From Sphingobacterium sp. GVS05A (GTDB taxonomy: Bacteria; Bacteroidota; Bacteroidia; Sphingobacteriales; Sphingobacteriaceae), in the NCBI RefSeq assembly GCF_019969845.1, contig NZ_JAHXYR010000004.1, positions 186,001 through 250,000 on the forward strand: a stretch of 64,000 bases of DNA, in the 5' to 3' direction. Made by a program: the position numbers and the translations under genes. This document shows, piece by piece, positions 19,103-55,649 of this stretch. Each line of letters begins with the position of its first letter. Position 1 is the stretch's first letter. The notes below the pieces were generated by a model that was not told the DNA's origin, searched no databases, and saw nothing but the letters and a program-made list of their open reading frames with translations.

Positions 19103-19167
19103 AAAAAAAGGTTTCCAAACGGGGAGAATGAAAACCTTAAATAACCAATTATAAACCTAAATTATGA
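19103..19167 (-). ncRNA. Repeated small RNA, copy 1
   Basis: This is a predicted transcript of about 65 nt on the minus strand, one of four near-identical copies in the window. The 3' end is an intrinsic terminator: a 9-bp stem (minus strand arms from 19130-19138 and 19108-19116), a 13-nt loop containing UCUCCCCG, and a U-tract. This copy has C at 19115 where the others have T. On the minus-strand RNA this gives a G-U pair and keeps the stem; on a plus-strand RNA it would be a C-A mismatch. The 5' part, about 30 nt, is AU-rich and unpaired. There is no ORF. No family name could be assigned from sequence alone. Confidence 0.75.
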
Positions 19168-19172
19168 TACTA

Positions 19173-19204
19173 CAAAAATAGTGTACTTTGTACACTTTAG
19201 CAAA
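19173..19204 (-). promoter_or_regulatory. sRNA copy 1 promoter with internal dyad
   Basis: Read on the minus strand: TTTG (19201-19204), 20-bp spacer, TATTTTTG (19173-19180), an exact Bacteroidota -33/-7 pair. The spacer holds the 15-bp dyad GTGTACTTTGTACAC (19181-19195), which here has 6-bp arms. Confidence 0.75.
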
Positions 19205-19378
19205 TTTTTTTAAAAATATTATTATAATAATTTAAAACACTGCGACTATAAATAAAAGAATTGAGATTATGAATTTTACCTGATTATCTCATAGATATTT
19301 ATTATTATGAATTTAAAAGTTTGATTAAGTTTGCAATTAAGAAATACCTTGGAATATTTTTTTTGAGATACAATATAT

Positions 19379-19879
19379 ATGGATACTTTTATTTGCCAAA
19401 ATTGCGGTGTAGAACATACTGAATTACCATCCTTAGCTTTTGATGCCCCTTTTCATTATGATATATTAAGTCTAGTCGATAAAGAGAAACTCGCAGAAAA
19501 AGAGGATGATTTTTGTGTCATCAATCATAAAGATCAGATTGACTATTTTATCCGTGTTGTTTTGCAGATTCCTATTTTGGATCACGACGAAACCTTAGAT
19601 TATGGTGTTTGGGTTTCGGTGAGCAAAGAAACGATAGAGGATTATCGCCTTATGTTTGCGGCTAAGGAGGCCGAAGAAAAAAGCTATTTTGGTATGCTCT
19701 GTAATGAAATAGCAGATTATGAAACTTCTACAATTGGACTTTATATGCAGGTTTTAACTCAATTGAATGGTTATCGTCCATTATTAATACCTTATGAGTC
19801 TGAACATTCATTGGTACAGGATTGGTCGAATGGTATTAGTAGAGATGAGGCTGTCCGACGAGTTAATTCTGTGACTTAG
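19379..19879 (+). CDS. DUF2199 domain protein
   Basis: This 166-residue protein matches DUF2199 in order: N-terminal CQNCGVEH (Cys6, Cys9, a zinc-ribbon-like knuckle), LPSLAFDAPFHYDIL, then DDFCVINHKDQIDYFIRVVLQIPI and the signature YGVWVSVSKETIEDY. The C-terminal part contains GLYMQVLTQLNGYRPLLIP and EHSLVQDW. The function of the domain is not established; members are small cytoplasmic proteins, often near phage- or stress-linked genes. It stands alone, 175 bases from the first sRNA promoter, with which it is divergent. Confidence 0.85.
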   Translation: MDTFICQNCGVEHTELPSLAFDAPFHYDILSLVDKEKLAEKEDDFCVINHKDQIDYFIRVVLQIPILDHDETLDYGVWVSVSKETIEDYRLMFAAKEAEEKSYFGMLCNEIADYETSTIGLYMQVLTQLNGYRPLLIPYESEHSLVQDWSNGISRDEAVRRVNSVT

Positions 19880-20318
19880 ATTTCTCTCGTCGCTAGTGCT
19901 TCATTTTTACCTAGAACCCATTCTTTCGATGCAGATTCGCTTTAGAATTATGCTATTTTACCACGGTGTATCTATTTATTTCCTTGGTTTTAGTTTTCTT
20001 ATGGTGTATTAACACCCAATTTTTTTGTGCTATTTATGCAAAGACTATAGTTTTTTTTCGTCGTATTTTCATTGTTATTGTTTTACACGTTGCCTTTTCT
20101 ATTGTTTCAAACGTTTTCGTAAATAAATCATGCAATTTGATTCGTTTCACCTATATTAATTGATATCTTGTTTTAGAAAGCCAATTGAAAAAATAACCAA
20201 TGGCTGAGGAAGGTGTACCAATCTCCTAAATCGAAAGGGATTAAACTGCATAATAACTTTAATATCCCAATATTCAATAAATAAACCGGGCGTACGAGCT
20301 CAAGATGTAATTATCACA
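19880..20318. other. Intergenic region upstream of the DUF1080 gene
   Basis: The 439 bases are T-rich on the + strand. A 65-codon open frame (19966-20163) is low-complexity Phe/Ile/Val sequence without a family match and is probably not translated. A small dyad GGTGT-ATTA-ACACC lies near 20006. I see no convincing promoter for the gene at 20319. Confidence 0.4.
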
Positions 20319-21710
20319 ATGAAAAGAAACACATTATTTAAGTTTGTCTTAGTGGCAGCGATGGCTGGAAATACTATTTTATCGCATGCGCAGATGAATA
20401 AGACCACAGAAAAAGGCTGGACAAATCTTTTTGACGGAAAAACGCTGAATGGCTGGAAAACCGTTGGCGGGAAAGCTCCTTATTCTATTGAGGGGGACGC
20501 GATCGTGGGAAGAATGACTAAAGGAACGCCCAATTCATTTTTGGTCACAGAAAAAGAATATGGTGATTTCATATTGGAACTAGATGTTAAGCTCGAAGGC
20601 AGTCAAACGAATTCAGGAATCCAGACCCGGAGTCATCTTGACCCAAAAGCAAATGATGGCCGTGGCAAGGTCTATGGAAGGCAAGTGGAGATTGACCCGT
20701 CATCCAGGGCGTGGACAGGTGGTATCTATGATGAAGCTCGCCGCGGCTGGCTTTATCCGTTGGATCTCAATGAAAATGCAAAGAAGGCGTATAAAGCCGA
20801 AGAGTATAATCACATTAGAATAGAGGCAATCGGTGATGAATTGCGTACCTGGATCAATGATATTCCTGTTTCTTATGTCGTAGATACAATTGATCGAACT
20901 GGATTCATCGGATTACAAGTACACAGTATTCCTTCAGAATTAGATGGTAAGAAAGTCTATTTCAAAAATGTTAAAATAAAGACCACTGATCTGAAGACAA
21001 AAGGTTTTCCGAAGGATATTTATATCGTCAATCTAAAGCCAAATGAAATAGTGGCTGCCGAAAAGAAAAAAGGAGTAAAGCTGCTATTTGATGGTAAAAC
21101 TAATAATGGATGGCGAAGCATCCATGGAGATAAATTTCCTGATCGTGGTTGGGAAATTAAGGATGGTCAATTAACTGTTTTGAAATCTGATGGTGGAGAA
21201 TCTACCAATGGCGGTGATATCATAACGAAGGATAAATATACCGTATTTGACCTCTCTTTTGAATTTAAACTTAGTCCTGGAGCGAATAGCGGAGTAAAAT
21301 ATTTTGTCACATTGAAGGAAAAGTCCAAAGGATCGGCCATCGGTCTAGAATTTCAGGTACTTGATGATGCCTTACATCCTGATGCAAAGTTAGGTCGTGA
21401 CGGTAACCGGACCCTGGCATCACTATATGATCTTATCACATCGAATAGAGATGCGCGTGCCCGGAGACCGATAGGCGAATGGAACAGAGGTCGGGTAGTG
21501 GTTACCGCGGATAACAAGGTTGAGCATTATCTGAATGGAATAAAGATGTTGAGTTACGAAAGAGGATCGAAGGAGTTTAAGGACCTTGTCGCGATTAGCA
21601 AGTATAAGGACTGGGACAACTTTGGTGAAGCAAAAGAAGGCTCCATTCTATTACAGGATCATGGTGATCGAGTTTCATTTCGCAGTATAAAGATTAATAC
21701 ACAAAACTAA
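20319..21710 (+). CDS. Two-domain DUF1080 (3-keto-disaccharide hydrolase-like) protein
   Basis: This 463-residue exported protein has a signal peptide (residues 1-24, ending ILSHAQ) and two DUF1080 domains in tandem. The first (about 32-220) opens with WTNLFDGKTLNGWKTVGG, the second (about 250-460) with KLLFDGKTNNGWRS. Both include the conserved LELDVKLEGSQTNSGI-like and LSFEFKLSPGANSGVKYF strand. DUF1080 proteins are concanavalin-like folds, and recent work on Bacteroides showed some cleave 3-keto-glycosides by an elimination route after a partner dehydrogenase oxidises C3. The gene next door is such an oxidoreductase, 6 bases downstream, which supports that role. The sugar is unknown. Confidence 0.88.
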   Translation: MKRNTLFKFVLVAAMAGNTILSHAQMNKTTEKGWTNLFDGKTLNGWKTVGGKAPYSIEGDAIVGRMTKGTPNSFLVTEKEYGDFILELDVKLEGSQTNSGIQTRSHLDPKANDGRGKVYGRQVEIDPSSRAWTGGIYDEARRGWLYPLDLNENAKKAYKAEEYNHIRIEAIGDELRTWINDIPVSYVVDTIDRTGFIGLQVHSIPSELDGKKVYFKNVKIKTTDLKTKGFPKDIYIVNLKPNEIVAAEKKKGVKLLFDGKTNNGWRSIHGDKFPDRGWEIKDGQLTVLKSDGGESTNGGDIITKDKYTVFDLSFEFKLSPGANSGVKYFVTLKEKSKGSAIGLEFQVLDDALHPDAKLGRDGNRTLASLYDLITSNRDARARRPIGEWNRGRVVVTADNKVEHYLNGIKMLSYERGSKEFKDLVAISKYKDWDNFGEAKEGSILLQDHGDRVSFRSIKINTQN

Positions 21711-21716
21711 GCTCAT

Positions 21717-23132
21717 ATGAATCATTATCTATCACGTCGAAGCTTTGTAAAACAATCTGTTATTGCAGCGGGTGCAGTCATGCTATCGAATAGCGTCCTT
21801 GGCAAGGTCACTTTAGCATCACCGAATGAACGGGTTAATTTGGCATGTGTAGGTCTCGGCAATAGAGCTGCGGATATTATAAAAGAACTCTATAAAACCG
21901 GCCTTTGTAATATTGTCGCACTCTGTGATGTAGACTTGGGAGCTAAGCACACACAGGAAATTTTGAGTATGTTTCCGGATGCACCAAAATTTAAAGACTT
22001 TAGAGTTATGTTTGACAAGATGGGGAGCCAAATCGATGCGGTTAGCATCGGTATACCGGATTTCTCCCATTTTGCCATAACGATGTTGGCCTTGGATCTT
22101 GGAAAGCATGTTTACGTTGAAAAACCAATGGCAAGAACATTTCTTGAAGTTGAATTAATGACAAATAAGGCCAAGAAGAATCCAAAACTTGTAACGCAGA
22201 TGGGGAATCAGGGGCATTCCGAAGCGAACTACTTTCAATTCAAGGCATGGAAGGATGCGGGGATAATTAAAGATATCACGCGTATCGATGCTCATATGAA
22301 TATGCCCCGCAGATGGCATGGATGGGATGTAAATATGAAAGGATTTCCAGCTGCTGAAATAACACCAGACACGTTGGACTGGGAACTGTGGCAAATGCAG
22401 ACCCTAGGACATAATTATAATAAAGACTTTGTGAATGGGCAATGGCGCTGTTGGTATGATTTTGGCATGGGAGCTCTTGGTGATTGGGGGGCGCATATCT
22501 TAGATACTGCACATGAGTTTTTGGATCTTGGGTTGCCTACAGAAGTAAGTGCTGTAAAGCTTGATGGACATAATTCGTATTTTTTTCCCATGTCTTCGAC
22601 ACTGAAATTTCATTTTCCGAAGCGAAAAAAGATGCCTGCAGTTGATATTAATTGGTATGATGGCTTAAATAATTTGCCACCAATCCCAGACGGCTACGGG
22701 GTTTCGGGATTGGATCCGAATATTCCAGCCCCCAGTACAGGTAAGTTAGAGCCGGCGAAATTAAATCCTGGAAAAATTATCTATGGAAAGGATCTGACTT
22801 TCAAAGGAGGTTCTCACGCAAGTATTTTGCAGATTATACCTGAAACAAAGGCAAAGGAATTAGAATCCCGTCTTCCAGAGGTTCCGAAATCACCATCTAA
22901 TCATTATGCCAACTTCCTTAAAGCATGTAAAGGAGAAGAGAAAACAAGGTCAGCTTTTGAAATTGCAGGACCTTTAAGTCAAGTGTTCTGTTTGGGAGTA
23001 ATTGCACAGCGTCTAAATGCGAAGCTGATTTTTGATCCCCAGAAAAAAGAAATCAGTAATGATAGATTTGCGAATGCACTTTTGGCAGGACCTCCACCTA
23101 CAAGAGGCTGGGAACAGTATTATAAAATGTAA
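21717..23132 (+). CDS. Gfo/Idh/MocA family oxidoreductase with Tat-type signal
   Basis: The 471-residue protein starts with a Tat-like leader (SRRSFVKQSVIAAGAVMLSN, residues 5-24), so it is probably exported folded with its cofactor. The Rossmann part follows: VNLACVGLGNRAADII as the dinucleotide-binding loop and VYVEKPMA, the EKP motif of the family. The second half carries WRCWYDFGMGALGDWGAHILD, a segment typical of the secreted Bacteroidota subgroup. Family members oxidise or reduce sugars with NAD(H). With the DUF1080 gene 6 bases upstream, the likely role is oxidation of a glycoside at C3 before cleavage. A terminator at 23167 ends the pair. Confidence 0.9.
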   Translation: MNHYLSRRSFVKQSVIAAGAVMLSNSVLGKVTLASPNERVNLACVGLGNRAADIIKELYKTGLCNIVALCDVDLGAKHTQEILSMFPDAPKFKDFRVMFDKMGSQIDAVSIGIPDFSHFAITMLALDLGKHVYVEKPMARTFLEVELMTNKAKKNPKLVTQMGNQGHSEANYFQFKAWKDAGIIKDITRIDAHMNMPRRWHGWDVNMKGFPAAEITPDTLDWELWQMQTLGHNYNKDFVNGQWRCWYDFGMGALGDWGAHILDTAHEFLDLGLPTEVSAVKLDGHNSYFFPMSSTLKFHFPKRKKMPAVDINWYDGLNNLPPIPDGYGVSGLDPNIPAPSTGKLEPAKLNPGKIIYGKDLTFKGGSHASILQIIPETKAKELESRLPEVPKSPSNHYANFLKACKGEEKTRSAFEIAGPLSQVFCLGVIAQRLNAKLIFDPQKKEISNDRFANALLAGPPPTRGWEQYYKM

Positions 23133-23166
23133 TCCGATAGAAACACTTAATCCATATAAAAAAGGC

Positions 23167-23200
23167 GAGGGATATTAATATTTATCCCTCACTTTTTTTT
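23167..23200 (+). terminator. Intrinsic terminator of the DUF1080-oxidoreductase pair
   Basis: The 8-bp stem GAGGGATA (23167-23174) with TATCCCTC (23183-23190) is followed by A, C and a run of T residues, a classical + strand terminator. Confidence 0.85.
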
Positions 23201-23503
23201 TGCTTTAACCAAGGTGCCGACCGATTTTTTTCGCTGAGGCTGGCCGGCAATCAATATGATCCTGATCACTAGGCTAAACAAACTTGTGGTAAATGGGGCT
23301 CAGGAATCTAGTCGATCTTAAACTTTCATCCAAAACGGAGAGATCTAGGTGCCAATAAATTATAACTCTAAGCACAATAACTTACGAAATGGGATTCAAG
23401 TCTCCAATGGTTAAACGATTTTAGAGCAGGCTGGTATATACAAAGAAGTTGGCTTTGATTAATAGGAGAGTGAAGAGTGAAAAATAAGTGTTTAGATAAA
23501 ATG
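23201..23503. other. Intergenic sequence without identified gene
   Basis: These 303 bases lie between the terminator and the second sRNA copy. I see no ORF with a family match, no repeat shared with other gaps and no promoter. Confidence 0.35.
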
Positions 23504-23567
23504 AAAAAAGGTTTTCAAACGGGGAGAATGAAAACCTTCAATAACCAATTATAAACCTAAATTATGA
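23504..23567 (-). ncRNA. Repeated small RNA, copy 2
   Basis: Same element as at 19103 on the same strand. The terminator stem is perfect (AAGGTTTTC 23508-23516 with GAAAACCTT 23530-23538 on the plus strand) with the same UCUCCCCG-containing loop and a U-tract of six. The 5' part is identical to copy 1 over about 30 bases apart from one base next to the stem. It lies just after the stop of the HxlR regulator gene on the same strand, but its own promoter sits in that 31-base gap, so it is an independent unit. Confidence 0.75.
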
Positions 23568-23572
23568 TACTA

Positions 23573-23604
23573 CAAATGTAAGTGTATTTTTTACACTATG
23601 CAAA
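23573..23604 (-). promoter_or_regulatory. sRNA copy 2 promoter with internal dyad
   Basis: On the minus strand TTTG (23601-23604), 20-bp spacer, TACATTTG (23573-23580). The dyad GTGTA-N5-TACAC lies at 23582-23596, shifted by one base relative to copies 1, 3 and 4. Confidence 0.75.
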
Positions 23605-23635
23605 TTTTTTTATATTTTTTTAATACGATGAAGTC

Positions 23636-24004
23636 TTACATCGAAAGACCTTTTAATTTTTCTCCCCATTTTCCAAGTTCACGAATGATAGGAGATAGCT
23701 CATAACCAATAGTTGTTAATTCATACGTTACTCGTAGAGGAACCTCAGCATATATCGTGCGTTTGACGACTCTATTTTCCTCTAATTTTCGTAATTGCAA
23801 AGTCAACATGCGTTCGGTGATATTAGGAAGGCATTTTCTGATTTCACTGTATCGGAGGCTTCCGTTGATTAGATAGCAACAAATAGCCAAAGACCACTGG
23901 CCACCAATAATATTAGCCGCAAATACCTCAGGGCAATCATTCGCTAAAATTTGTTTATTGGCAAAATTGGTTGAACTCTCTTTGATTTTTGTCATCACGC
24001 ACAT
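23636..24004 (-). CDS. HxlR family transcriptional regulator
   Basis: This 122-residue single-domain winged-helix protein has the HxlR pattern: Cys near the N-terminus (DCPEVFAANIIGGQWSLAIC), then SLRYSEIRKCLPNITERMLT (recognition helix), LQLRKLEENRVVKRTIYAEV (wing) and a C-terminal dimer helix (LSPIIRELGKWGEKL). HxlR/YodB/HypR proteins sense electrophiles, quinones or disulfide stress through the N-terminal cysteine. It is divergent from a flavodoxin-fold oxidoreductase with 148 bases between them, the usual arrangement of an HxlR regulator and its target. The extra start region (MCVMTK) makes ATG 24004 or 23995 equally possible. Confidence 0.92.
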   Translation of the reverse strand: MCVMTKIKESSTNFANKQILANDCPEVFAANIIGGQWSLAICCYLINGSLRYSEIRKCLPNITERMLTLQLRKLEENRVVKRTIYAEVPLRVTYELTTIGYELSPIIRELGKWGEKLKGLSM

Positions 24005-24152
24005 TTTTTATAGTACCGAACATTGGGCTACCAGTGCGCCAAAATAAGGAATATCTCGCTATTTTTGAGTCAAAATAATCGAGTGAATAAAACAATTACG
24101 ACTATCGAACGCCGTGATAATGAGTATCCAAACTATTGAATAATTAGCTATA

Positions 24153-24683
24153 ATGAAAACATTGGTCATTGTAATACATCCAAATATTAAAGAATCACTC
24201 CTTAATAAGAGGTGGATCGAGGAATTGGAAAAACATCCGGAGGACTATGAAATCCATCAATTGCATGAAAGATATCCAGATGAAAAAATTGACGTTACCC
24301 TGGAACAGCAATTGATTGAAAAACATGATAAAATCATATTTCAATTCCCATTTTATTGGTTTAACTGCCCTCCTTTTTTTAAAAAGTGGTTGGATGAGGT
24401 ATTGACCTATGGCTGGGCATATGGAAAGTCGAGTGGTTACAAGTTAGCAGGAAAGAAGATCGCTTTGGCCGTTTCTGTTGGGATTGACGAAGCAGAATAT
24501 AGTGCAAATGGAAAGTATAAATATAGCCTAGATCAATTGACAAGTCCTTTTGAGATTACATTCAATTATGTTCACGCCAATTATCAACCACTTTTTGCAT
24601 ACTATGGTATCGAAAAACATGCTTCCGAAGAATGGGTTGAACAGAGTGTACCCTATTATCTCAATTTTTTAAAACAGTTGTAG
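24153..24683 (+). CDS. NAD(P)H-dependent flavodoxin-fold oxidoreductase (KefF/MdaB-like)
   Basis: This 176-residue protein has the quinone-reductase layout: TLVIVIHPNIKESLLNKRW (FMN phosphate loop), then KIIFQFPFYWFNCPPFFKKW (the QFPxYWF signature of the NQO1/KefF/MdaB group), and GKKIALAVSVGI as the next strand. These are FMN or FAD enzymes that reduce quinones in two-electron steps in the cytoplasm and protect against electrophiles. It is divergent from the HxlR regulator, which likely controls it. A perfect 16-bp terminator hairpin follows. The start ATG at 24153 opens directly onto the first strand. Confidence 0.92.
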   Translation: MKTLVIVIHPNIKESLLNKRWIEELEKHPEDYEIHQLHERYPDEKIDVTLEQQLIEKHDKIIFQFPFYWFNCPPFFKKWLDEVLTYGWAYGKSSGYKLAGKKIALAVSVGIDEAEYSANGKYKYSLDQLTSPFEITFNYVHANYQPLFAYYGIEKHASEEWVEQSVPYYLNFLKQL

Positions 24684-24740
24684 ACGATCAATATGAATTG
24701 AAATTTTTGCAGGATCTGGTAAGTTAGACTTACCAAATAT

Positions 24741-24777
24741 CAAAGGCATCTTTTTATATAAAAGATGCCTTTGATAA
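24741..24777. terminator. Bidirectional intrinsic terminator, 16-bp stem
   Basis: ATCAAAGGCATCTTTT (24741-24756) pairs perfectly with 24762-24777 around a 5-nt TATAT loop. It sits between the convergent oxidoreductase and SDR genes and can end transcripts from both sides. Confidence 0.85.
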
Positions 24778-24784
24778 TGTTACA

Positions 24785-25540
24785 CTATCGTGTTGTATAC
24801 CCTCCATTGGCAAAAATGGTTTGCCCGGTAATCCACCAACCATCTGTTACCAGGAATTCGACTAGAGGAGCAATATCTTTAATGTCAGTCAACCCCCCAA
24901 GTGCAGAGGCGGATTTATGATAAGCTACTGCTTCTTCGCTCTCTTGTCCATAGAAAAATGATGTATCCATTGGACCGGGAGCAACCGCTGTCACCGAAAT
25001 ACCTCGATCGCCAAATTCTTTGGACGCAGCACGCGTAAAATGTTCAACGGGTGCTTTCAGTCCTTCATATGTAGAATAAAACCCTGTGTATGCCGCAAGT
25101 AACGATGTGACAATCGTGCAAACTTTACCGTTGTTGTTCAATTTTTTGCCTGCTTCTTGGATAAAAAAGTAGGCAACTTTGGAATTAATATCACTCATGC
25201 TGTCATATTCATCCACTGTTGTATCTACGATCGGTTTTTTTAATACTTTACCGACGGTATTAATTGCAATATCGATTCCTCCATATTGCAACACCGCCGT
25301 ATCAAAGAGCTTGCTAATATTTTCGATATTAGTAAGATCCGCTTGAAAGAGGATCGCTTCCGCTCCAGCAGCCTTTACCACTGCCAGTGTTCCTTCTGCA
25401 TCTGCCTTGCTGTGCTCACTGTTATAGTGGATCACCAATTTGGCGCCTTTAGCAGCAAAATTTCGACTCAACAAACCACCAAGGTTTTTCGCGCCGCCAG
25501 CGATCAATACAACTTTTCCTTTTACATCATTCCTTGCCAT
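24785..25540 (-). CDS. SDR family oxidoreductase
   Basis: This 251-residue short-chain dehydrogenase has the glycine-rich NAD(P) loop (AGGAKNLGG, a variant of TGxxxGxG), the NTVG strand end (usually NNAG), Ser in IVTSLLAAYTGF, and the catalytic YxxxK as STYEGLKAPVEHF. The C-terminal VEFLVTDGWWITGQTIFANGGYTTR is the classical SDR ending. It oxidises or reduces a hydroxyl or carbonyl group; the substrate is unknown. The Tyr-x-x-x-Lys triad is complete, so activity is expected. It lies 50 bases downstream of an AraC-type reading frame on the same strand, which may regulate it. Confidence 0.92.
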   Translation of the reverse strand: MARNDVKGKVVLIAGGAKNLGGLLSRNFAAKGAKLVIHYNSEHSKADAEGTLAVVKAAGAEAILFQADLTNIENISKLFDTAVLQYGGIDIAINTVGKVLKKPIVDTTVDEYDSMSDINSKVAYFFIQEAGKKLNNNGKVCTIVTSLLAAYTGFYSTYEGLKAPVEHFTRAASKEFGDRGISVTAVAPGPMDTSFFYGQESEEAVAYHKSASALGGLTDIKDIAPLVEFLVTDGWWITGQTIFANGGYTTR

Positions 25541-25590
25541 AATAATTTATATTTTGATTATAACAAATTTCATGAAAGTAAATGATGATA

Positions 25591-25983
25591 TTATGGTGAA
25601 CTTTTCGCTTTTTTCAATTGACGAAATTCAGATGGGGTTATACCTTCATATTTCTTAAAAAATTTGGTGAAATTAGATGGATCGTAAGTAAGTGTTTGAG
25701 CGATGGTCGAGATGGTCAATGTGCTGTTGATTAGGAGATCCTTTGTGCATGTTAATATTTTATTTACATAAAAATGGCAAGGGTGATTTCCACTGGTTTC
25801 CTGTATTATTTTAATAAGATGTTTTTGAGAGATACAAAGTAAACTGGCTATATCCTTTAATTCTAACATTTCCATAGCTTTGCCATTAACTAAATCAGAT
25901 AAATGGCGGTCCAACAATTCAAAGTATTGGATTGTAATTTCTGTGCTTCTTCTCTTAATGTGAGGTGAAAATACTTCCGTTAT
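25591..25983 (-). CDS. AraC-type DNA-binding protein without a clear start codon
   Basis: The frame encodes a complete AraC-type double helix-turn-helix: LELKDIASLLCISQKHLIKI and LTISTIAQTLTYDPSNFTKFFKK. Only TTG at 25917 was available as start, but the frame stays open upstream and encodes ITEVFSPHIKRRSTEITIQY, sequence in the style of the N-terminal helix of short AraC regulators, so the real start should be near 25983. No ATG, GTG or TTG is found there. Either a rare start (ATA or ATT) is used or the start has been destroyed and the gene is decaying. It precedes the SDR gene on the same strand and its third-sRNA neighbour begins 150 bases upstream. Confidence 0.6.
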   Translation of the reverse strand: MTEVFSPHIKRRSTEITIQYFELLDRHLSDLVNGKAMEMLELKDIASLLCISQKHLIKIIQETSGNHPCHFYVNKILTCTKDLLINSTLTISTIAQTLTYDPSNFTKFFKKYEGITPSEFRQLKKAKSSP

Positions 25984-26134
25984 GCTAATTATCCTGAATA
26001 ATATTCTAAATATAAGTAAATTATGTGTGCAGGGGTACTGTTGCTTCCTCTTATAAGCAGGCTATTAGAGCAGGATTTACTTAAAGAATACAACAGCGCA
26101 ATATATTTTACAAATTTTAGTGTAATGTAAAAAC

Positions 26135-26199
26135 AAAAAAAGGTTTTCAAACGGGGAGAATGAAAACCTTCAATAACCAATTATAAACCTAAATTATGA
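26135..26199 (-). ncRNA. Repeated small RNA, copy 3
   Basis: Third copy on the minus strand, with perfect terminator stem (26140-26148 with 26162-26170), identical UCUCCCCG loop and a U-tract of five to seven. The transcribed part differs from copy 2 by only two bases close to the predicted 5' end. It lies between the start-less AraC frame and the decayed DadA-like gene. Confidence 0.75.
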
Positions 26200-26204
26200 T
26201 ATGA

Positions 26205-26236
26205 CAAAGGTAGTGTATTTTGTACACACTTGCAAG
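26205..26236 (-). promoter_or_regulatory. sRNA copy 3 promoter with internal dyad
   Basis: On the minus strand CTTG (26233-26236), 20-bp spacer, TACCTTTG (26205-26212), and the dyad GTGTA-N5-TACAC at 26213-26227. The variable -7 positions are CC here. Confidence 0.75.
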
Positions 26237-26417
26237 GGTTTTCGAATAAAATACTCATTTTGTTATACCATCGTGATATTACCTCTTGTTGTTTAGTTAT
26301 ATTGATTCTAATTTCCAGTTATAAGTCTTTGACAAGTGTTGCCCATAAAAGGTCAATATTAGGTCAGAATGGATTAATTCATAAGAAGACTGAGCAACTT
26401 ATTGGATATAGTATAGA

Positions 26418-26967
26418 TGATTGAAAACAATGGGATCAATATATTGCCAGTAGGCACGGATAATGTGCAAGAGGGTTTTGCTCAAGCTATGTTGGTGGAA
26501 ATAGATACAGTGCGGGTATTGTGCAATCCTGAACTGCTGGAAAGAGGACATTTATTTCTTGTGTCAATTGTCATGCAAAGAAGATTTTAATGGAACATTT
26601 GGTTGGTCAGATAATCTTGACCTTCGCGGCATCTGACAATGATATGTAGAAATATCAGGAGCTGTTCACTATTGCACAGAACAAGTGCGGAAGACTGTTG
26701 TTCCAAGGTATGCCAACTAGTGTTGAGTAAAACACGCTATGCAACAACTGGGGGCATTTCCAGCGACCATAGATTGAGTCACATACAGTGTACAGGAGAG
26801 ACTATGGAAGATTAAAAAATTACGGCAATGCTATTGTAGCTGGAGGAGGAGGAATGATGGGGCTGAGTTTGGGTCCCGCCTATGGCGAGATTGTTTGTGA
26901 CCTATTGGCTGCTAGAGAAATTGAACCCAGTATTGTCGGATTTAAGCCAGATCGTTTCGACCGTTAA
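26418..26967 (+). pseudogene. Decayed FAD-dependent D-amino-acid oxidase/DadA-like gene
   Basis: The last 55 codons (26800-26964, stop TAA at 26965) read GRLKNYGNAIVAGGGGMMGL then SLGPAYGEIVCDLLAA, which is the C-terminal FAD-binding segment of DadA/DAO-type oxidoreductases (usually AxGHGMMGLSLxPaTG). Upstream, a separate frame from 26418 ends at 26589 and the stretch between is interrupted in all + frames, so most of the enzyme is lost or scrambled; I could not place the 26418-26589 part in the family. A strong terminator follows the stop. Next to three proline-peptide peptidases, a former D-proline or D-hydroxyproline dehydrogenase is a reasonable guess, not a demonstration. Confidence 0.65.
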
Positions 26968-26981
26968 GAATCCATTTTATA

Positions 26982-27027
26982 AACAGTTGCCCCAAAAATA
27001 GGATTACCTGCTTTTGGGGCAACTGTT
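26982..27027. terminator. Intrinsic terminator, 16-bp perfect stem
   Basis: AACAGTTGCCCCAAAA (26982-26997) pairs with 27012-27027 around a 14-nt loop and is followed by AAATTTTTG. It follows the stop of the decayed DadA-like gene and may also end the minus-strand peptidase operon that finishes at 27109. Confidence 0.85.
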
Positions 27028-27108
27028 AAATTTTTGTCTCCAAAGTCTTCAAAATTATGCTATTTTCTTGTGTCGTGTTGAAGCTTCCAACATGCTTTTG
27101 AATAGATG

Positions 27109-28782
27109 TTATTCTGACAAAAGGCCTATATAATAATTGAATGTATCGACATCGATATTTTCCTTATTTAATCCCGCAATTTTTATCGTTCTGAACTGTT
27201 GATCTAGTTGAATAAGCTGTCTCTTTTCGCCTTTTATTCCGATATGGATTGGCATCTGAAACCCTTTGACCGCGCTAATCCACCTGCCCATTATTCTACC
27301 AGAAGCATCTTGTTGGATTTCTAGTGTTGGAATAGAGGTATGCTGAACATACTGTTCAAATACTTTTGACAGGTCCAGACCCGACTGCTGGCTTACATAA
27401 TTCACAATATCACTGTAATTTACCTGTTGATGATAGAATTTACTATTCAAACCTCGTAATATAGCGCGCCATTTATCGTCATCATCTATCATTGTACGGA
27501 TCATATTGAGCATGACACCTCCTTTAGGATACATATCGCCCGATCCCTCCTTGTTGACGTGATATGGTCCCTGCATGGGGCTGTCATTGTGAATGCCACT
27601 TCGGATACCATGCGCATATGCCTGACTGGCTTCTTTGCCGTAGAAATAGTCTATAAATAAACCCTCAGAATAATTTGTGAAACTCTCATGAATCCACATG
27701 TCCGCGAGATCGGCAGAAGTGATATTATTACCAAACCATTCATGGCCCGATTCGTGGACTACAATGAAATCCCATTTTTGCCCCCAACCTGTTCCCGAAG
27801 CATCGTTTCCACGATATCCATTCTGATAATGATTGCCATAGGCAATAGCACTTTGATGTTCCATACCCGTATGATACGTTTCGACCAGTTTGTAACCATC
27901 CGCATAAAAAGGATATGGACCAAACCAATACTCAAATGCTTCTAACGTCTGTCTGGCATTTTTTTGAAGATGAGCCTTTTTTTCTGTTTTATCATTCTCC
28001 CGCAAGATATAGTAGTCGACATCCAAAGGACCTTTTTCACCTTTGTATTTTTCTTGAAAATGAATATAGTCTCCAATATTGATGGCTACATTGTAGTTGT
28101 TGATCGGATTGGCAACTTTCCAATGGTATTTGTTGTATCCGTCTTTCATTTTTTCCACTTTTACCAATCGCCCATTAGATACGTTCATTACTTCTTTTGG
28201 GACAGCGATCGAAATCATCATACTGTCGACTTCATCGTACTGATGGTCTTTATTAGGCCACCAGACGCTAGCGCCCATACCTTGGCAGGCTGTAGCCACC
28301 CAAGGTTTACCATTGCTGTCTTTTTTCCAGTCAAAGCCACCGTCCCAGGGAGCGCGTGCTGCCTCTGTGGGATGACCTTCATAATACACTGTGAATTCAC
28401 TTTGCGTACCTTTGGTGATTTTAGTAGGAAAGTTCAAAAAAACAGCATTATATTCTCTTGTAAATGAGAGCTCTTTCCCTTGATAGATAACCTTATTAAT
28501 TTTAAGATTGGCAAACAGATCGAATTGTAGACGTTCAAAATCTTCCGTGGCCTTAAAGCGGAATAAGTTTGAACCTGAAATGAATTTATTGTCTACATCT
28601 ACTTTCACGTCCAAATGATAATATTGGATATCGTAGCAAGTGCGCAATGGTGTGAGAAATCCCCGCAATGAATCCGCTCGCGTGAATTCATTTTTTTCTT
28701 TCATCAGTTGCGCGTTGGATTGCTGGGAGCCTGCGACTAAAATGCCACAGGTACCTAGTGCATATAATAGTATTCTTTTCAT
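27109..28782 (-). CDS. M1 family metallo-aminopeptidase, exported
   Basis: This 557-residue protein has a signal peptide (residues 1-24) and the M1 fold: an N-terminal beta domain (YYHLDVKVDVDNKFISGSNL), GMEHQSA in place of the GAMEN substrate loop, and the zinc site HESGHEWFGN with the downstream ESFTNY glutamate. It should remove N-terminal residues from peptides, in the periplasm. It lacks the large C-terminal helical domain of PepN, like other M1 enzymes of this size. It begins 4 bases after the S9 peptidase gene, so the two are one operon, and together with the M24 peptidase they cover N-terminal, dipeptidyl and Xaa-Pro cleavage. Confidence 0.93.
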   Translation of the reverse strand: MKRILLYALGTCGILVAGSQQSNAQLMKEKNEFTRADSLRGFLTPLRTCYDIQYYHLDVKVDVDNKFISGSNLFRFKATEDFERLQFDLFANLKINKVIYQGKELSFTREYNAVFLNFPTKITKGTQSEFTVYYEGHPTEAARAPWDGGFDWKKDSNGKPWVATACQGMGASVWWPNKDHQYDEVDSMMISIAVPKEVMNVSNGRLVKVEKMKDGYNKYHWKVANPINNYNVAINIGDYIHFQEKYKGEKGPLDVDYYILRENDKTEKKAHLQKNARQTLEAFEYWFGPYPFYADGYKLVETYHTGMEHQSAIAYGNHYQNGYRGNDASGTGWGQKWDFIVVHESGHEWFGNNITSADLADMWIHESFTNYSEGLFIDYFYGKEASQAYAHGIRSGIHNDSPMQGPYHVNKEGSGDMYPKGGVMLNMIRTMIDDDDKWRAILRGLNSKFYHQQVNYSDIVNYVSQQSGLDLSKVFEQYVQHTSIPTLEIQQDASGRIMGRWISAVKGFQMPIHIGIKGEKRQLIQLDQQFRTIKIAGLNKENIDVDTFNYYIGLLSE

Positions 28783-28786
28783 TCGC

Positions 28787-30961
28787 TTATCTTCCGCCTG
28801 GAGGGCAATGTAGTTTTAAATAATTCGTAAATAACGTTCTTAGGTGTTCGTGAGTCCCTTCTCCTTCACTAATGGAATGACTACGGTTAGGATAGGACAT
28901 TAACTGAAATTGTACATTATTTTTTATGAATTCGTCTATAAGAACTTCCGCATTCTGATAATGAACATTATCGTCTCCAGTGCCGTGTATATACAGTAGA
29001 TTTCCTTTAATATTTTTTGCATATTTCAATGGCGAACCATTCTCAAAGTCGGCTAAATTTTCTTGTGGAAGTCCCATATAACGTTCTTGATAGACATTAT
29101 CATAAAGGAGTTGATTAGCAACAGCTGCTATTGCAATACCTGTTTTATAGATTTGTGGGTATTGTCCCAGTAAATTGAGGGTACTTGAACCACCTCCGCT
29201 CCATCCCCAGACTGCGATGCGCGAATTATCTACAAAAGACCATTTTAATATTTCCTGTGTGGCTAATGCTTGATCACGAATATTGAGCTGACCGATATTG
29301 CGGTAGATACTTTTGCGCCATAGGCTACCTTTAGGAGCAGGTGTGCCCCGGTTATCCAAAGAAATATAAATGTATCCGTCCTGGGCCATATTTCCTTTAT
29401 ACAAGCTGTTATAACCTGCGCTAAAGTTGTCGATTACAGTTTGTGAAGCAGGCTCACCATATACCATAAAGACTACTGGATACTTTTTATTCGGATCGAA
29501 ATCCAGTGGTTTGACCATCCAGCCATCTAGTTCAACACCTTCAGTAGTCTTAACTTTGAAAAATTCGGCTATGCCATCACTGACTTTCTTTTCACGTTTA
29601 ACCTCAAAATCCACTACTGTCCGGTGTGTAGGGAGCTCGATAATAGCATCTTGCTTGAGCTCGGAACGGTTGCTAAAGCTGAAGATAGCAATCTTGCCAT
29701 CTTTCGAAATATCATAATCGCAAGTTCCCTCGAAAGATGCTGGTGTGAGCCTTTTTGGGGAGCCACCTCTAGTAGAGACACTATACAGATATTTTTGAGT
29801 CGCATTGCTGGGAGAAGCAGTGAAATAGATTGTTTCTCCTTTTGGATCTAGAAAATCAAGATTAATAATGTCATAATCCGCTTTCGTAATGAGCTTTTCA
29901 TTACCTTTAAAGTCAATTTGATAGATTTTTCGCCAGCCGTCTTTTTCCGATACCCATATAAATGCTTTTCCATCCTGTATCCAGTCCCAGCCCGAAGGAT
30001 CATTATTATTCCATCTTGCCTTGATGTCAATCCAGGAATCGCTCGTTTCGCGATGTATTGCTTGAGCTTCATGAGTAGCAATGGAAGCTGTGTAGATCTT
30101 ACTTTCGTTTTGTTTCCTATTGAGTTGCTGAAAAATAAGCTGTTTGCTGTCCATACACCATTCCATACGTGGAATATAATGCTGTTCAGGATCTCCCGGA
30201 ATGTTTATGCGGCTATTCTTTCCGCTAGCAAGTTCATAAGTCCATATGGAACAAGCGCTTGGAGACTGTCCCACTTTCGGATATTCTACAGGAATGGTAA
30301 AAGAGTAGAGACTATCCGTATTATTAATCATTAGAAAATTACGGATACTGTTTGCGTCAAGTTTCCAGTAGGCGATAGAGAGACCATCAGGCGACCATCT
30401 AAAACCATCTTTGCAACCAAACTCTTCCTCATAAACCCAATCGAAAGTTCCATTGATCATACGGTCTGTCCCATCCTTCGTTACGGCGTTTATATTTCCA
30501 TTCGTTAGATCCTCCACATAAATATTATGGTCTGCTTTGTTAACATAAGCCACTTTATTGGCTTGAGGATTAAATTTGGCAAACATCAATTGGGATGATG
30601 GAAATTGACGGCCTAATTGCGTCAATTGATTGGATTTCTTGTTGTACACCCAATAATCACCCCTTGTATTTTCTCGCCAAACCTTTTTGCTATTGGTATA
30701 GATTAAAATTAGTTCCCTATTCTTGGATATCGAAAAATTCTCAACTTTTATTGCCGTATTGCTGCCTTTTGGAATAAGAGATTGCTGGGATAAAAAGGTT
30801 CCCCGGTTTCCATTTTTTGGATCGACGATCTCAATCCCTTTATCCGAAAACTCATAATATTGGTCACCAATATCCGTCCAGAGTCTTTGCGCAAAAAGAG
30901 GATTGGATAGATAAAGAACCAATAACAGTTTTGCGAGGATAAAATGTCTAATTCTATTCAT
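28787..30961 (-). CDS. S9 family dipeptidyl peptidase IV-like serine peptidase
   Basis: This protein of about 724 residues has a signal peptide, an N-terminal beta-propeller (DPPIV_N; WSPDGLSIAYWKLDANS and DWVYEEEFGCKDGFRW, where YEEE resembles the EE motif that holds the substrate amino end), and a C-terminal alpha/beta hydrolase with WGWSGGGSS (nucleophile Ser near residue 600), HGTGDDNVH (Asp) and NRSHSI (His). DPP IV enzymes release Xaa-Pro dipeptides. I chose ATG 30961 because it opens onto the signal peptide; an ATG 24 bases upstream is in frame. The gene starts 70 bases after the M24 peptidase gene and is followed immediately by the M1 gene. Confidence 0.93.
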   Translation of the reverse strand: MNRIRHFILAKLLLVLYLSNPLFAQRLWTDIGDQYYEFSDKGIEIVDPKNGNRGTFLSQQSLIPKGSNTAIKVENFSISKNRELILIYTNSKKVWRENTRGDYWVYNKKSNQLTQLGRQFPSSQLMFAKFNPQANKVAYVNKADHNIYVEDLTNGNINAVTKDGTDRMINGTFDWVYEEEFGCKDGFRWSPDGLSIAYWKLDANSIRNFLMINNTDSLYSFTIPVEYPKVGQSPSACSIWTYELASGKNSRINIPGDPEQHYIPRMEWCMDSKQLIFQQLNRKQNESKIYTASIATHEAQAIHRETSDSWIDIKARWNNNDPSGWDWIQDGKAFIWVSEKDGWRKIYQIDFKGNEKLITKADYDIINLDFLDPKGETIYFTASPSNATQKYLYSVSTRGGSPKRLTPASFEGTCDYDISKDGKIAIFSFSNRSELKQDAIIELPTHRTVVDFEVKREKKVSDGIAEFFKVKTTEGVELDGWMVKPLDFDPNKKYPVVFMVYGEPASQTVIDNFSAGYNSLYKGNMAQDGYIYISLDNRGTPAPKGSLWRKSIYRNIGQLNIRDQALATQEILKWSFVDNSRIAVWGWSGGGSSTLNLLGQYPQIYKTGIAIAAVANQLLYDNVYQERYMGLPQENLADFENGSPLKYAKNIKGNLLYIHGTGDDNVHYQNAEVLIDEFIKNNVQFQLMSYPNRSHSISEGEGTHEHLRTLFTNYLKLHCPPGGR

Positions 30962-31030
30962 TTGTATATGATTATTATTGATCAATTATTTAATTCAGAT
31001 GAGGTATGTTACTAGGATCCTCCAGCGTAT

Positions 31031-32419
31031 TTAATCTATTGCATTGTCTTTTAGGCGATAGATTTCTTGCACTTCACGTTCGAGGTATTTTCCGAGACGT
31101 CGATAACCATTTTCCTCAATAAGATAATTGTCCTCAATACGAATTCCCCCAAAATCGAGATGTTTTTTCAGAAAGTCATAATTGACAAAATCCCTGTGCA
31201 GATTTTGCTGCTCCCAAAGCTGTGTCAGTTCAGGGATGAGATAGATACCTGGTTCCACAGTAAGTACATTGCCAGCTTCCAATTCCTTACCTAATCGCAG
31301 AGATTTAAGACCGAAGGTCTTGGTATCTTTAGGTTCGGACGTACTGTAGCCCACATATTGTTCGCCCAGATCTTCCATATCATGTACATCCAGCCCGAGA
31401 AGGTGACCTAGTCCACATTGAAAGAATAGTGTGTGTGCATGGTTAGCAACTGCATCTTGTGAGTTGCCTTTCATAAACCCGACCTGGATCAGTCCGTCTA
31501 CGAGTGCTTCACAGGCTTTTAAATGGATATCTTTAAAACGGATTCCGGCAGTTAACAACTGCTCAGCAGATTTAAATGCGTGTAAAACGATCTGGTAGAT
31601 TTCCTCCTGTAAAGAGGTAAAACGTTTACCAACAGGAAAGGTCCGTGTTAGGTCGGAAGCATATCCCAATGATGTTTCAACTCCAGAGTCATTCAGAAGA
31701 AGATCGCCTTCATGAACTTGATGGAACTGCATATGGTTGTGCAAGATTTCACCTCTTTTGGTCACGATTGGCGGATAAGAAAAAGGCATGCCCTGGTCCT
31801 GTGCAAAATGCTGCATGGCATTGCTAATCTGATATTCATAACAACCGGGTTTGGTCATCTGGATAGCGAGACGGTGCATGTCTACAGCTACATCTACAGC
31901 TTTTTCTAGTTCGACAACTTCCTCCACTGATTTAATACTGCGTTGTGCGGCTACAGCTTGAATTAAAGCTACAGATGGTTGAAGCTGATTAACAGGACAA
32001 TTAAACAATTTTCCAAGCAATATTTTATTGTGCGATTGATAGGGGGGAAGGTAATAGAGTGTATTTTGATCGCTTTTTTTTAGATAGTCGAAGAGTTGAT
32101 CAAAAGGAAGTAATTTACGGATCCCCGAAAGGGCCGCTTTTTCTGCCAACGTCTGTTGTTGTCCCATCCAGACGATATCGTCGATGGTCATTTCATCACC
32201 AAATAGTAATGTCTCTCCCAGATCAATATCGAGGAGAGCAGCTAATCGAGGAGCTTTTATACCAATATAATATAAAAAACTACTGTCCTGACGAAATGGG
32301 TAGGTATTGTGTTCAAAATTGATCGGGTTCTCAATATTCCCTAAAAAAAGGATTTTTCCAACGGAAAATTTTGAAATGAGCTCGTTCCTTCGGGTAGTAT
32401 AGATTTCTTTCTTAAACAT
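31031..32419 (-). CDS. Aminopeptidase P family (M24) Xaa-Pro peptidase
   Basis: This protein of 462 residues has the two-domain aminopeptidase P layout. An N-terminal creatinase-like domain (NPINFEHNTYPFRQDSSFLY) covers about residues 1-170, and the pita-bread catalytic domain follows with the dinuclear metal ligands in order: Asp in LNDSGVE, Asp in SDLTRTFPVG, His in CGLGHLLGLDVHD, Glu in TVEPGIYL and Glu in IRIEDNYL. It cleaves the residue before proline in Xaa-Pro peptides, and has no signal peptide, so it is cytoplasmic. ATG 32419 is preferred to the TTG at 32443. It heads the peptidase operon and is divergent from an AraC regulator. Confidence 0.93.
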   Translation of the reverse strand: MFKKEIYTTRRNELISKFSVGKILFLGNIENPINFEHNTYPFRQDSSFLYYIGIKAPRLAALLDIDLGETLLFGDEMTIDDIVWMGQQQTLAEKAALSGIRKLLPFDQLFDYLKKSDQNTLYYLPPYQSHNKILLGKLFNCPVNQLQPSVALIQAVAAQRSIKSVEEVVELEKAVDVAVDMHRLAIQMTKPGCYEYQISNAMQHFAQDQGMPFSYPPIVTKRGEILHNHMQFHQVHEGDLLLNDSGVETSLGYASDLTRTFPVGKRFTSLQEEIYQIVLHAFKSAEQLLTAGIRFKDIHLKACEALVDGLIQVGFMKGNSQDAVANHAHTLFFQCGLGHLLGLDVHDMEDLGEQYVGYSTSEPKDTKTFGLKSLRLGKELEAGNVLTVEPGIYLIPELTQLWEQQNLHRDFVNYDFLKKHLDFGGIRIEDNYLIEENGYRRLGKYLEREVQEIYRLKDNAID

Positions 32420-32899
32420 ATTTGTGAAAATTAAGAGAGGCAACGTATAATTAAGATTTACAACGATATTATTTACATAAATAATACATATGCTAATATC
32501 GCAAAATTTAATCTTTTAATCTTGAGGACTCCTATTCAAAAACGGTATTGTGGTTGATATTTTAACGTTGTTACAATTGCTTATTTTTAATAATTGATAC
32601 ATGAAAAAAAAATAACATCGACATTTAATAAAGTTCTATGTTTATATTGAATATTAATTATCGCAATTTATCAAAGTCTAATTGTATTTTAACCTAGTTT
32701 TTGTAAGATATTGAGTTTTAATGCCTGATTTTATCAAATGCTGAATGGAAAATTTGCGGATTGCTAAATATTATCACATTATATACATATTTTGTTTTTG
32801 TTTTTTCATGGATTATGATTGATGTGTTTACTTGTTTCGTAGTTATTATATTTATATTAACTAAACAGTAGTAAATACGAATATAAACTATGAAATCCT
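32420..32899. other. Divergent promoter region of peptidase operon and AraC regulator
   Basis: These 480 very AT-rich bases hold the promoters of both the M24 operon (minus) and the AraC gene (plus). An 8-bp inverted repeat TATTATTT-ACAT-AAATAATA (32467-32486) lies close to the M24 start and could be an operator. No exact TTG-N20-TAnnTTTG pair was found on either strand. Confidence 0.4.
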
Positions 32900-33784
32900 A
32901 TGAAAACGCTCCAATTTAATGTGCCAACAATGCAAGGCCAAAGTTTAACAGTACAAGAGGATATTTTAGAAACTTTTTATCCGCATCTTCACAGACATCA
33001 AGAAGCTCAACTTATGTGGATAGTAAAGGGGAGAGGAATATTGATTGTTGAAGATACTTTACATCCTTTTAAAGAAAACGATATTTTCTTTTTGGGTGCC
33101 AATCAGCCACACGTATTTAAGTCGTCCTCGCAGGACGGTTTTTCAAATGAGTCTCGTTCTATCTCGATTTTTTTTGACCCGAATGGCAAACTCAAGTTCT
33201 TGTTCTCATTAGAGGAATTTGAATCGTTAAATCAGTTTATCTATAATAATTCCTGTGGTTTTAAAATTCCGGAGGAATACTTTGAGCAAATTTCGGAAAG
33301 AGTATTACAATTGAAATCTTCAGATCAAATGGATAAGTTGATGCATTTTTTCTATCTACTGAGATCTTTGGCGAATATATCAAGGGAGACGGATCCGCTT
33401 TGTGCAGAAAGAGCGGAAGTGATCTTAGACACGATTCATAGTTCAAATCGAATTAATCTAATCTGTAATTATATCAAAGAAAATCATAAACATGATCTTA
33501 GTCTAGAAGATGTCGCCGATTATGCCAACCTTACACCACAGGCATTTTGCAGGTATTTTAAAAAACATTGTGGCGTTACTTTTGTCGCATATTTAAATCG
33601 AATACGGGTTAAAGAGGTGTGTAATCAATTGAATGAAGATCATTTAGATAGCGTTTCGTTTATTGCATACAGTTGCGGATTCAATAGTATTACCAATTTT
33701 AATAGAGTGTTTAAGCAGATCATTGGCTGCAATCCAAAAGAATATGTGCAGCAATATAAGCAAACACTATATTCTGTCATCTAG
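32900..33784 (+). CDS. AraC family transcriptional regulator with cupin domain
   Basis: This 294-residue protein has an N-terminal cupin (about residues 15-110; FYPHLHRHQEAQLMWIVKG and ENDIFFLGANQPHVF, with histidines that could bind metal or ligand) and a C-terminal AraC double HTH (about 195-290; LSLEDVADYANLTPQAFCRYF and IAYSCGFNSITNFNRVFKQIIG). It is divergent from the peptidase operon and so is its most likely regulator, perhaps responding to proline, hydroxyproline or a peptide; the ligand is not shown by the sequence. ATG 32900 opens directly onto the domain. Confidence 0.93.
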   Translation: MKTLQFNVPTMQGQSLTVQEDILETFYPHLHRHQEAQLMWIVKGRGILIVEDTLHPFKENDIFFLGANQPHVFKSSSQDGFSNESRSISIFFDPNGKLKFLFSLEEFESLNQFIYNNSCGFKIPEEYFEQISERVLQLKSSDQMDKLMHFFYLLRSLANISRETDPLCAERAEVILDTIHSSNRINLICNYIKENHKHDLSLEDVADYANLTPQAFCRYFKKHCGVTFVAYLNRIRVKEVCNQLNEDHLDSVSFIAYSCGFNSITNFNRVFKQIIGCNPKEYVQQYKQTLYSVI

Positions 33785-33998
33785 GGAAGTTATGGTGAAG
33801 ATCCAAAAATAACGAGCTTGTTGATTTTAGGCAGTATTCGAAACTAATTTTCGTCGTGTAGGAACTGTATATTTCGATGGTTTTCGTATCAGCGGAGACG
33901 ATCAAAATATGCAGTTATAAACACTTTTTCATCAGGTCTATTGTGTAGGAAAAATAAAGAAGGTTAGATTTATTTATCTTTAAGGAAGTTTATTAGAC
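33785..33998. other. Intergenic sequence
   Basis: No gene, repeat or promoter was identified in these 214 bases between the AraC gene and the fourth sRNA copy. Confidence 0.35.
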
Positions 33999-34064
33999 AA
34001 AAAAAAGGTTTTCAAACGGGGAGAATGAAAACCTTAAATAACCAATTATAAACCTAAATTATGA
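33999..34064 (-). ncRNA. Repeated small RNA, copy 4
   Basis: Fourth copy on the minus strand. The terminator stem is perfect (34005-34013 with 34027-34035), the loop is identical (UCUCCCCG) and the U-tract is the longest of the four (six beyond the stem). Its transcribed 5' part is identical to copy 1. It follows the fabF stop by 17 bases but has its own promoter in and after that gap. Confidence 0.75.
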
Positions 34065-34069
34065 TACTA

Positions 34070-34101
34070 CAAAAATAGTGTGTTTATTACACTTTGTCAA
34101 G
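34070..34101 (-). promoter_or_regulatory. sRNA copy 4 promoter with internal dyad
   Basis: On the minus strand CTTG (34098-34101), 20-bp spacer, TATTTTTG (34070-34077). The dyad at 34078-34092 is GTGTG-N5-TACAC, with one arm base changed. Confidence 0.72.
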
Positions 34102-55500: not shown

Positions 55501-55649
55501 GTCGATGCGGTCTTTCCCTTGATACTAATGGTGACCCCAGGCATGGAGATCATGCTGGAGCCATCTTTGACGACTCCCTGGATAGAAGTTTGTCCATAGG
55601 CCACCGAGACGACCATGGATGTCAAAAATAATGCGGATAAATTCCTCAT
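52545..55649 (-). CDS. SusC/RagA family TonB-dependent transporter
   Basis: This 1034-residue outer-membrane receptor has a signal peptide (1-19), a carboxypeptidase-regulatory-like domain (about 22-95; IQGVVKDGSSMISMPGVTIS), the plug domain (LEEVVVIGYGTQKKADLTGS starts it and NPLYIVDGI is within) and a beta-barrel to the end (FLFGLNMQF, terminal Phe). It imports glycan oligosaccharides using the TonB-ExbBD energy system; those genes lie elsewhere. Its promoter region contains a dyad that flanks the -33 box. It is the first gene of the PUL operon. Confidence 0.95.
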   Translation of the reverse strand: MRNLSALFLTSMVVSVAYGQTSIQGVVKDGSSMISMPGVTISIKGKTASTKTDATGKFQINAAPTDSLVFNFLGYRTQTVYIGNQTQLSVFLENENKALEEVVVIGYGTQKKADLTGSISSLKSSDIAKQPAMSAMQSIQGKAAGLNIIANEAPGSSPNVIIRGLGTALGGRNPLYIVDGIAQTDINNINPSDIESMDVLKDASSASIYGLRAANGVIIVTTKKGKAGTVNINYESFAGMKKILNRVKMANSEQFTTFANEFLESVNKPGSYRLKTGQATNTDWFDEILKTGSVFNNAINISGGSETIDYFVSANNYTENGILEGSKFTRNTIRNNNVYKLLNNRLKFSQNVNLTLTKATPKPYSAFSTAYRQSPLVPVMYGNGRYGTNSVNINTGIVGIETAPGESLGNLNSQGNPVYEVLRQNQLTNTLRLQGSFEGEFKITDYLKINSRIGGNKFYSKDRQFVNIKENYLNANPLKTEADFYKEKADGKPGNITFANNSLKYENLEQFRWSWENFLTFNKTFDKHNIEAVVGMSREKYDINSMNSQTGYSVPEQEQYWNIDLASDEYELISRQTYYTPRALASYFGRVQYNYDSRYYFTGTIRRDGSSVFKNTGKYWGTFPSLGFGWNISNEEFMKDASWINLLKIRGNWGKLGNQDIPLNVSTIMNSPGASNYNYVFGPEQNLVYGSAYGTPAVDLTWEVTRETGAGIDFAFLNNNLSGSIDYYHKLNTNTILNVTPTLTSPSEQNFYAHGAKVLNQGVEVVLNWNKSISPDFSYTVGLNYAYNKNKVTEVQPAYDGATGGSLNNGEITKQLRVGQPIYGWWMFESIGVFQDANDIANNPSFGPAKPGYLKYKDQNSDGVIDTRDKKFFGSFLPSSTYGINIGINYKAIDFNLSGYGVAGNKVYNGLKSVRQDAGENLTLSTFQERWTKDNPNNVHPGAERAYWASSYFLESGSYFRINNITLGYTFRNLYSSKSNLRLYVTAQNPFMFTKYSGFSPELAGDGSPNLTSGIELSAYPTTRNFLFGLNMQF

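Follow-up and report, generated by a model that had tools for sequence, protein, structure and literature searches.

What is the role of a short element that recurs four times, always on the minus strand, in one stretch of the genome of Sphingobacterium sp. GVS05A? The stretch, called the window here, comprises 64,000 nucleotides (NZ_JAHXYR010000004.1, positions 186,001 to 250,000). An earlier note on its sequence had proposed a multicopy sRNA family. We favor the view that the elements encode sugar-responsive antisense sRNAs that would block SusC translation across many polysaccharide-uptake operons in a FopS-like manner, and we give this reading a probability of about 0.7. Sequence comparison supports the gene architecture, the covariation of the stem, the conservation of the seed and the complementarity of seed and SusC.

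Layout of the elements and extent of the family

The element was located on the minus strand at all four places, and the -7 boxes of copies 1 to 4 were those given in the earlier note (Table 1). As described there, the gap between TTG and TAnnTTTG was exactly 20 bp in each copy, the part from seed to terminator was nearly invariant over about 65 bases after the -7 box and closed with a hairpin and U-run, and the flanks of the four elements bore no relation to each other. The base change in the stem of copy 1 proved genuine and gives a G-U pair on the minus-strand RNA. The statement that the transcripts lack a start codon held for ATG and GTG, but short TTG frames are present. A feature absent from the earlier note is a GTGT-N7-ACAC dyad inside the promoter spacer of all four window copies. 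In copy 2 this dyad stands 1 bp out of register with the -7 box, the TTG spacing nonetheless being 20 bp.

Table 1. Positions in the window of the four sRNA genes (promoter to terminator) and of two SusC-family genes of the predicted target class.
Feature	Coordinates	Strand	TTG	Dyad	-7 box	Seed	Terminator hairpin	Remark
sRNA gene copy 1	19103..19203	minus	19201-19203	GTGTACAAAGTACAC 19181-19195	TATTTTTG 19173-19180	19142-19166	19108-19138	U-run to 19103
sRNA gene copy 2	23504..23603	minus	23601-23603	GTGTAAAAAATACAC 23582-23596	TACATTTG 23573-23580	23542-23566	23508-23538	
sRNA gene copy 3	26135..26235	minus	26233-26235	GTGTACAAAATACAC 26213-26227	TACCTTTG 26205-26212	26174-26198	26140-26170	
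sRNA gene copy 4	33999..34100	minus	34098-34100	GTGTAATAAACACAC 34078-34092	TATTTTTG 34070-34077	34039-34063	34005-34035	
SusC-family gene (G000:C28:238548-241586)	52548..55586	minus						predicted pairing -14.9 kcal/mol
SusC-family gene (G000:C28:245267-248221)	59267..62221	plus						predicted pairing -12.6 kcal/mol, unremarkable

A family of four was correct for the window but underestimated the genome. A pattern scan with the 25-nt core CATAATTTAGGTTWATAATTGGTTA at up to 3 mismatches found 22 loci, i.e. 18 beyond the window copies, 16 of the 22 having 0-1 mismatch; the reversed control pattern found no locus in the host genome in the same scan. BLAST with the consensus returned 17 loci in the host genome, of which 8 or 9 had essentially the core alone in common and differed in their terminator hairpins. 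The core was present in 7 to 38 copies per genome in 42 of 42 congeneric (Sphingobacterium) genomes and matched in 120 of 201 genomes of the same order, all of them assigned to the same family, compared to about 4 matches in total for the reversed control across the 201 genomes. Among the matches listed, the named genomes with an exact core were nearly all Sphingobacterium, Parapedobacter, Mucilaginibacter and Olivibacter, and a model search showed that AGGTTTATAATTGGTTAG or close variants are retained in several further genera. Because the members of a set of 146 were chosen for an exact core, the invariance of the core among them is by construction; the unbiased evidence is the 201-genome scan and the model search.

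A comparison with Rfam, including Flavo-1, gave no match over the gathering score in the window, and no family was assigned at either gathering or relaxed thresholds. Judged by Rfam, the family is not previously catalogued. A literature search, with most subscription journals outside its reach, turned up no publication on sRNAs of this kind in Sphingobacterium or Pedobacter.

Promoter classes, terminator and an operator-like dyad

The window copies belong to a class, termed class A, with a sigma-ABfr-type promoter. TTG was located 18 to 21 bp upstream of TAnnTTTG at 43 of the 47 class A loci (shuffles 2.9), the distance being almost always 19-20 bp, and 28 of the 47 members carried the dyad (shuffles 0.005). 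Within this class the terminator stem was paired in 97.7% of cells, and six of its ten pairs had changed on both sides, which was matched by none of 500 shuffles. Because TTG spacing and dyad exceed the shuffles and the terminator stem covaries over the 47 loci, the four-copy pattern is beyond chance. Seven members outside class A had sigma-54-like sites, in six cases at a constant distance from the core, while shuffles gave 0.06; sigma-54 is encoded in the host genome. In every class the RNA has a mostly single-stranded 5' part of about 31 nt and, after it, an intrinsic terminator. Nearly all members carry a C-rich terminator loop (UCCCC or GCCCAU) though the stems are unrelated, and this loop is possibly a protein site or a second seed. 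An anti-Shine-Dalgarno function of the loop was considered and rejected, since GGGGAG precedes only 3 of 930 ORFs.

These data also bear on whether the copies are a non-autonomous mobile element, a MITE-like repeat with an incidental promoter and terminator. Near-identical copies are indeed dispersed, seven of them on one contig. Yet a repeat search found no inverted repeat bounding the copies, the terminator stem shows compensatory changes and one seed is found again across genera. Because copies with wholly different terminators and promoters retain only the seed, unlike a mobile element, we consider this explanation extremely improbable. That related genomes retain the promoter boxes along with the seed and the stem pairing, and show compensatory stem changes, supports the earlier note's reading of a multicopy sRNA family rather than a MITE.

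The dyad and the -7 box together occurred five times in 6.3 Mb and only at the sRNA family. A fuller form of the dyad, GTGTA-N5-TACAC, was found alone at 18 places, compared to 6 for the reversed control. Outside the family it precedes pfkA, fba and pyk by about 85-110 bp, lies directly in front of galT-galK, is also present upstream of a GFO/IDH oxidoreductase, and occupies the gap that separates a sugar transporter from a periplasmic-binding sensor kinase (loci L376, L378, L380, L381, L389 and L391 of G000). Read post hoc, the 18 sites against 6 in the control suggest a candidate central-sugar regulon. With the fuller form in front of pfkA, fba, pyk and galT, class A may tie the synthesis of SusC to central sugar metabolism. 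A putative regulator binding at the GTGT-N7-ACAC dyad would provide this connection, and the class A sRNAs would then be the RNA arm of catabolite control. If true, the control of glycolytic genes and the uptake of polysaccharides would be linked in a way open to direct test. The dyad was checked against the Crp/BT4338 motif of B. thetaiotaomicron and rejected as such, the published consensus wwwTATGTTnTAnAACATAwww being different (PMC3878776).

Several genera, Mucilaginibacter among them, have a seed-bearing sRNA immediately 3' of an unusual class-II tRNA-like gene, often in tandem (loci L078, L110, L116, L120, L128, L302, L321, L324, L326 and L327). This neighbour is long and has a tRNA-Leu-like D arm, an anticodon loop UUGUCxC and a variable region of about 40 nt; neither ARAGORN nor Rfam calls a tRNA-like gene upstream of the seed. 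The Mucilaginibacter copy that is not tRNA-linked lacks TAnnTTTG and carries a dyad of related type, AGTGTTACTTTTACACT, at a greater distance upstream (L085, L094, L118, L126, L165 and L168), which suggests that the same regulator acts there in a different promoter setting.

The seed and the start regions of SusC genes

Sphingobacteriaceae are common polysaccharide degraders. The SusC set of the host genome comprised 56 genes, with the most upstream ATG taken as the start; the same number was counted in a second genome. Predicted pairing of the seed was stronger at the start regions of these 56 genes than at control start regions (p 2e-7). A target scan over 1.2 Mb plus the window, with 930 ORFs picked irrespective of function, ranked SusC best for seed pairing (p 2.8e-7). 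The top 100 of the 930 ORFs held 16 of the 40 SusC-like ORFs, the strong matches being those of a part of the SusC leaders. Twenty shuffled seeds did not reproduce the preference for SusC (best p 0.03). Furthermore, a k-mer test blind to the seed returned AACCAA, TAACCA, ACCAAT and CCAATT as the top hexamers at SusC starts (p 1e-10 to 1e-7), all four of which occur in the seed's reverse complement. SusC leaders and start regions were enriched for TAACCAATT, often with ..ATTATGA at the end.

A second genus (g18), which to judge by its abundance is probably Pedobacter, has an altered seed, CATAACAGGTTTATATTTGGTTAG. Its SusC leaders were enriched for TAACCA (14 of 30 vs 5 of 151, p 4e-9) and also for ACCAAAT, fitting that genus's own seed. 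The SusC leaders of the two genera differed in AACCAATT vs AACCAAAT (p 0.005), so that the 3' half of the seed and the leaders shift together. The overall seed-by-genus interaction in pairing energy was not significant (p 0.14). In the other named species, 8-kb loci yielded 9 SusC-like ORFs for the test, mostly truncated.

A true multicopy sRNA family might also act mainly on other mRNAs or on a protein, its likeness to SusC then reflecting a general leader or translation-enhancer motif, by descent or by chance. Several of the best-ranked predicted targets in the 930-ORF scan are not SusC, and pairing with SusC gives no account of a C-rich loop that is conserved independently of the stem. On the other hand, the loss of the SusC preference with shuffled seeds, the identity of the seed complement with SusC-enriched hexamers in two genera and the joint shift of 3' seed half and leaders point to SusC, and we regard the alternative as unlikely.

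In the proposed antisense mechanism the seed would pair across the leader and the start codon of SusC mRNA and thereby keep translation from starting at many polysaccharide-uptake operons simultaneously. We infer expression of the sRNAs, direct pairing, repression and a regulator. Sequence does not give the direction of the effect, and pairing with a leader can open structure as well; the sRNAs might thus activate or stabilise SusC mRNAs, or sponge another antisense RNA. Yet the CAU of the seed lies opposite the start codon, FopS, which has this layout too, acts as a repressor (PMC11697453) and no anti-SusC partner RNA was seen, which makes activation or sponging quite improbable. If the antisense reading is true, one seed carried by as many as 38 sRNAs in a genome would switch the uptake repertoire globally at the post-transcriptional level.

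Comparison with FopS and other sRNA families

FopS (RF04319) of B. thetaiotaomicron comprises 14 paralogous sRNAs of about 65-70 nt, and repression of SusC by seed pairing was shown experimentally there (PMC11697453). Both families consist of multicopy paralogues with a terminator hairpin and a single-stranded conserved 5' seed that is antisense to the translation initiation regions of SusC. Class A, to which the four window copies belong, shares the sigma-ABfr promoter of FopS, while the other classes differ; UUUUCAU and AGGUUAAUA-like stretches occur in the seed region of both, UUUUCAU here being found in the other promoter classes. The operator dyad, several promoter classes and up to 38 copies per genome distinguish the Sphingobacterium family. 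Two copies scored 16.8 and 16.3 bits with the FopS covariance model, compared to a gathering score of 56. The model gave weak matches in 41 relatives, none of them above the cut-off, and in the relatives inspected the best matches were other loci. In local alignments with the FopS consensus R1/R1', judged by dinucleotide shuffles, the seed yielded p 0.12 for the window type and 0.047 for the other classes. RRM_1 (PF00076; RbpB) was not detected in the host genome, while the Bacteroides control was detected, and Hfq was not found in the host genome either. Layout and target class are shared, but because the model score is below the cut-off, the seed similarity is at most borderline and neither RRM_1 nor Hfq was detected, we describe the family as working like FopS and do not file it as FopS.

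A wider scheme is conceivable, which we put forward tentatively and at somewhat less than even odds: a family-wide RNA catabolite control without RbpB or Hfq, in which several promoter types (an operator that glycolytic genes also have, sigma-54-like sites, release from a tRNA-like precursor) would drive one universal SusC-leader antisense seed that co-evolves with the leaders. If the FopS-like reading is true, the principle of FopS recurs outside Bacteroides without the FopS protein partner.

GibS of Bacteroides likewise has a conserved single-stranded 5' seed that pairs around start codons and regulates carbohydrate metabolism, but it is one RNA of about 145 nt with two seeds, the promoter motif PM2 and targets other than SusC (PMC7366714). 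Qrr, LhrC and CsRNA are unrelated in sequence, and the Sphingobacterium family has more copies per genome in a host without detected Hfq; like it, they consist of several redundant sRNAs with a common conserved seed, some of them under one regulator (PMC11697453).
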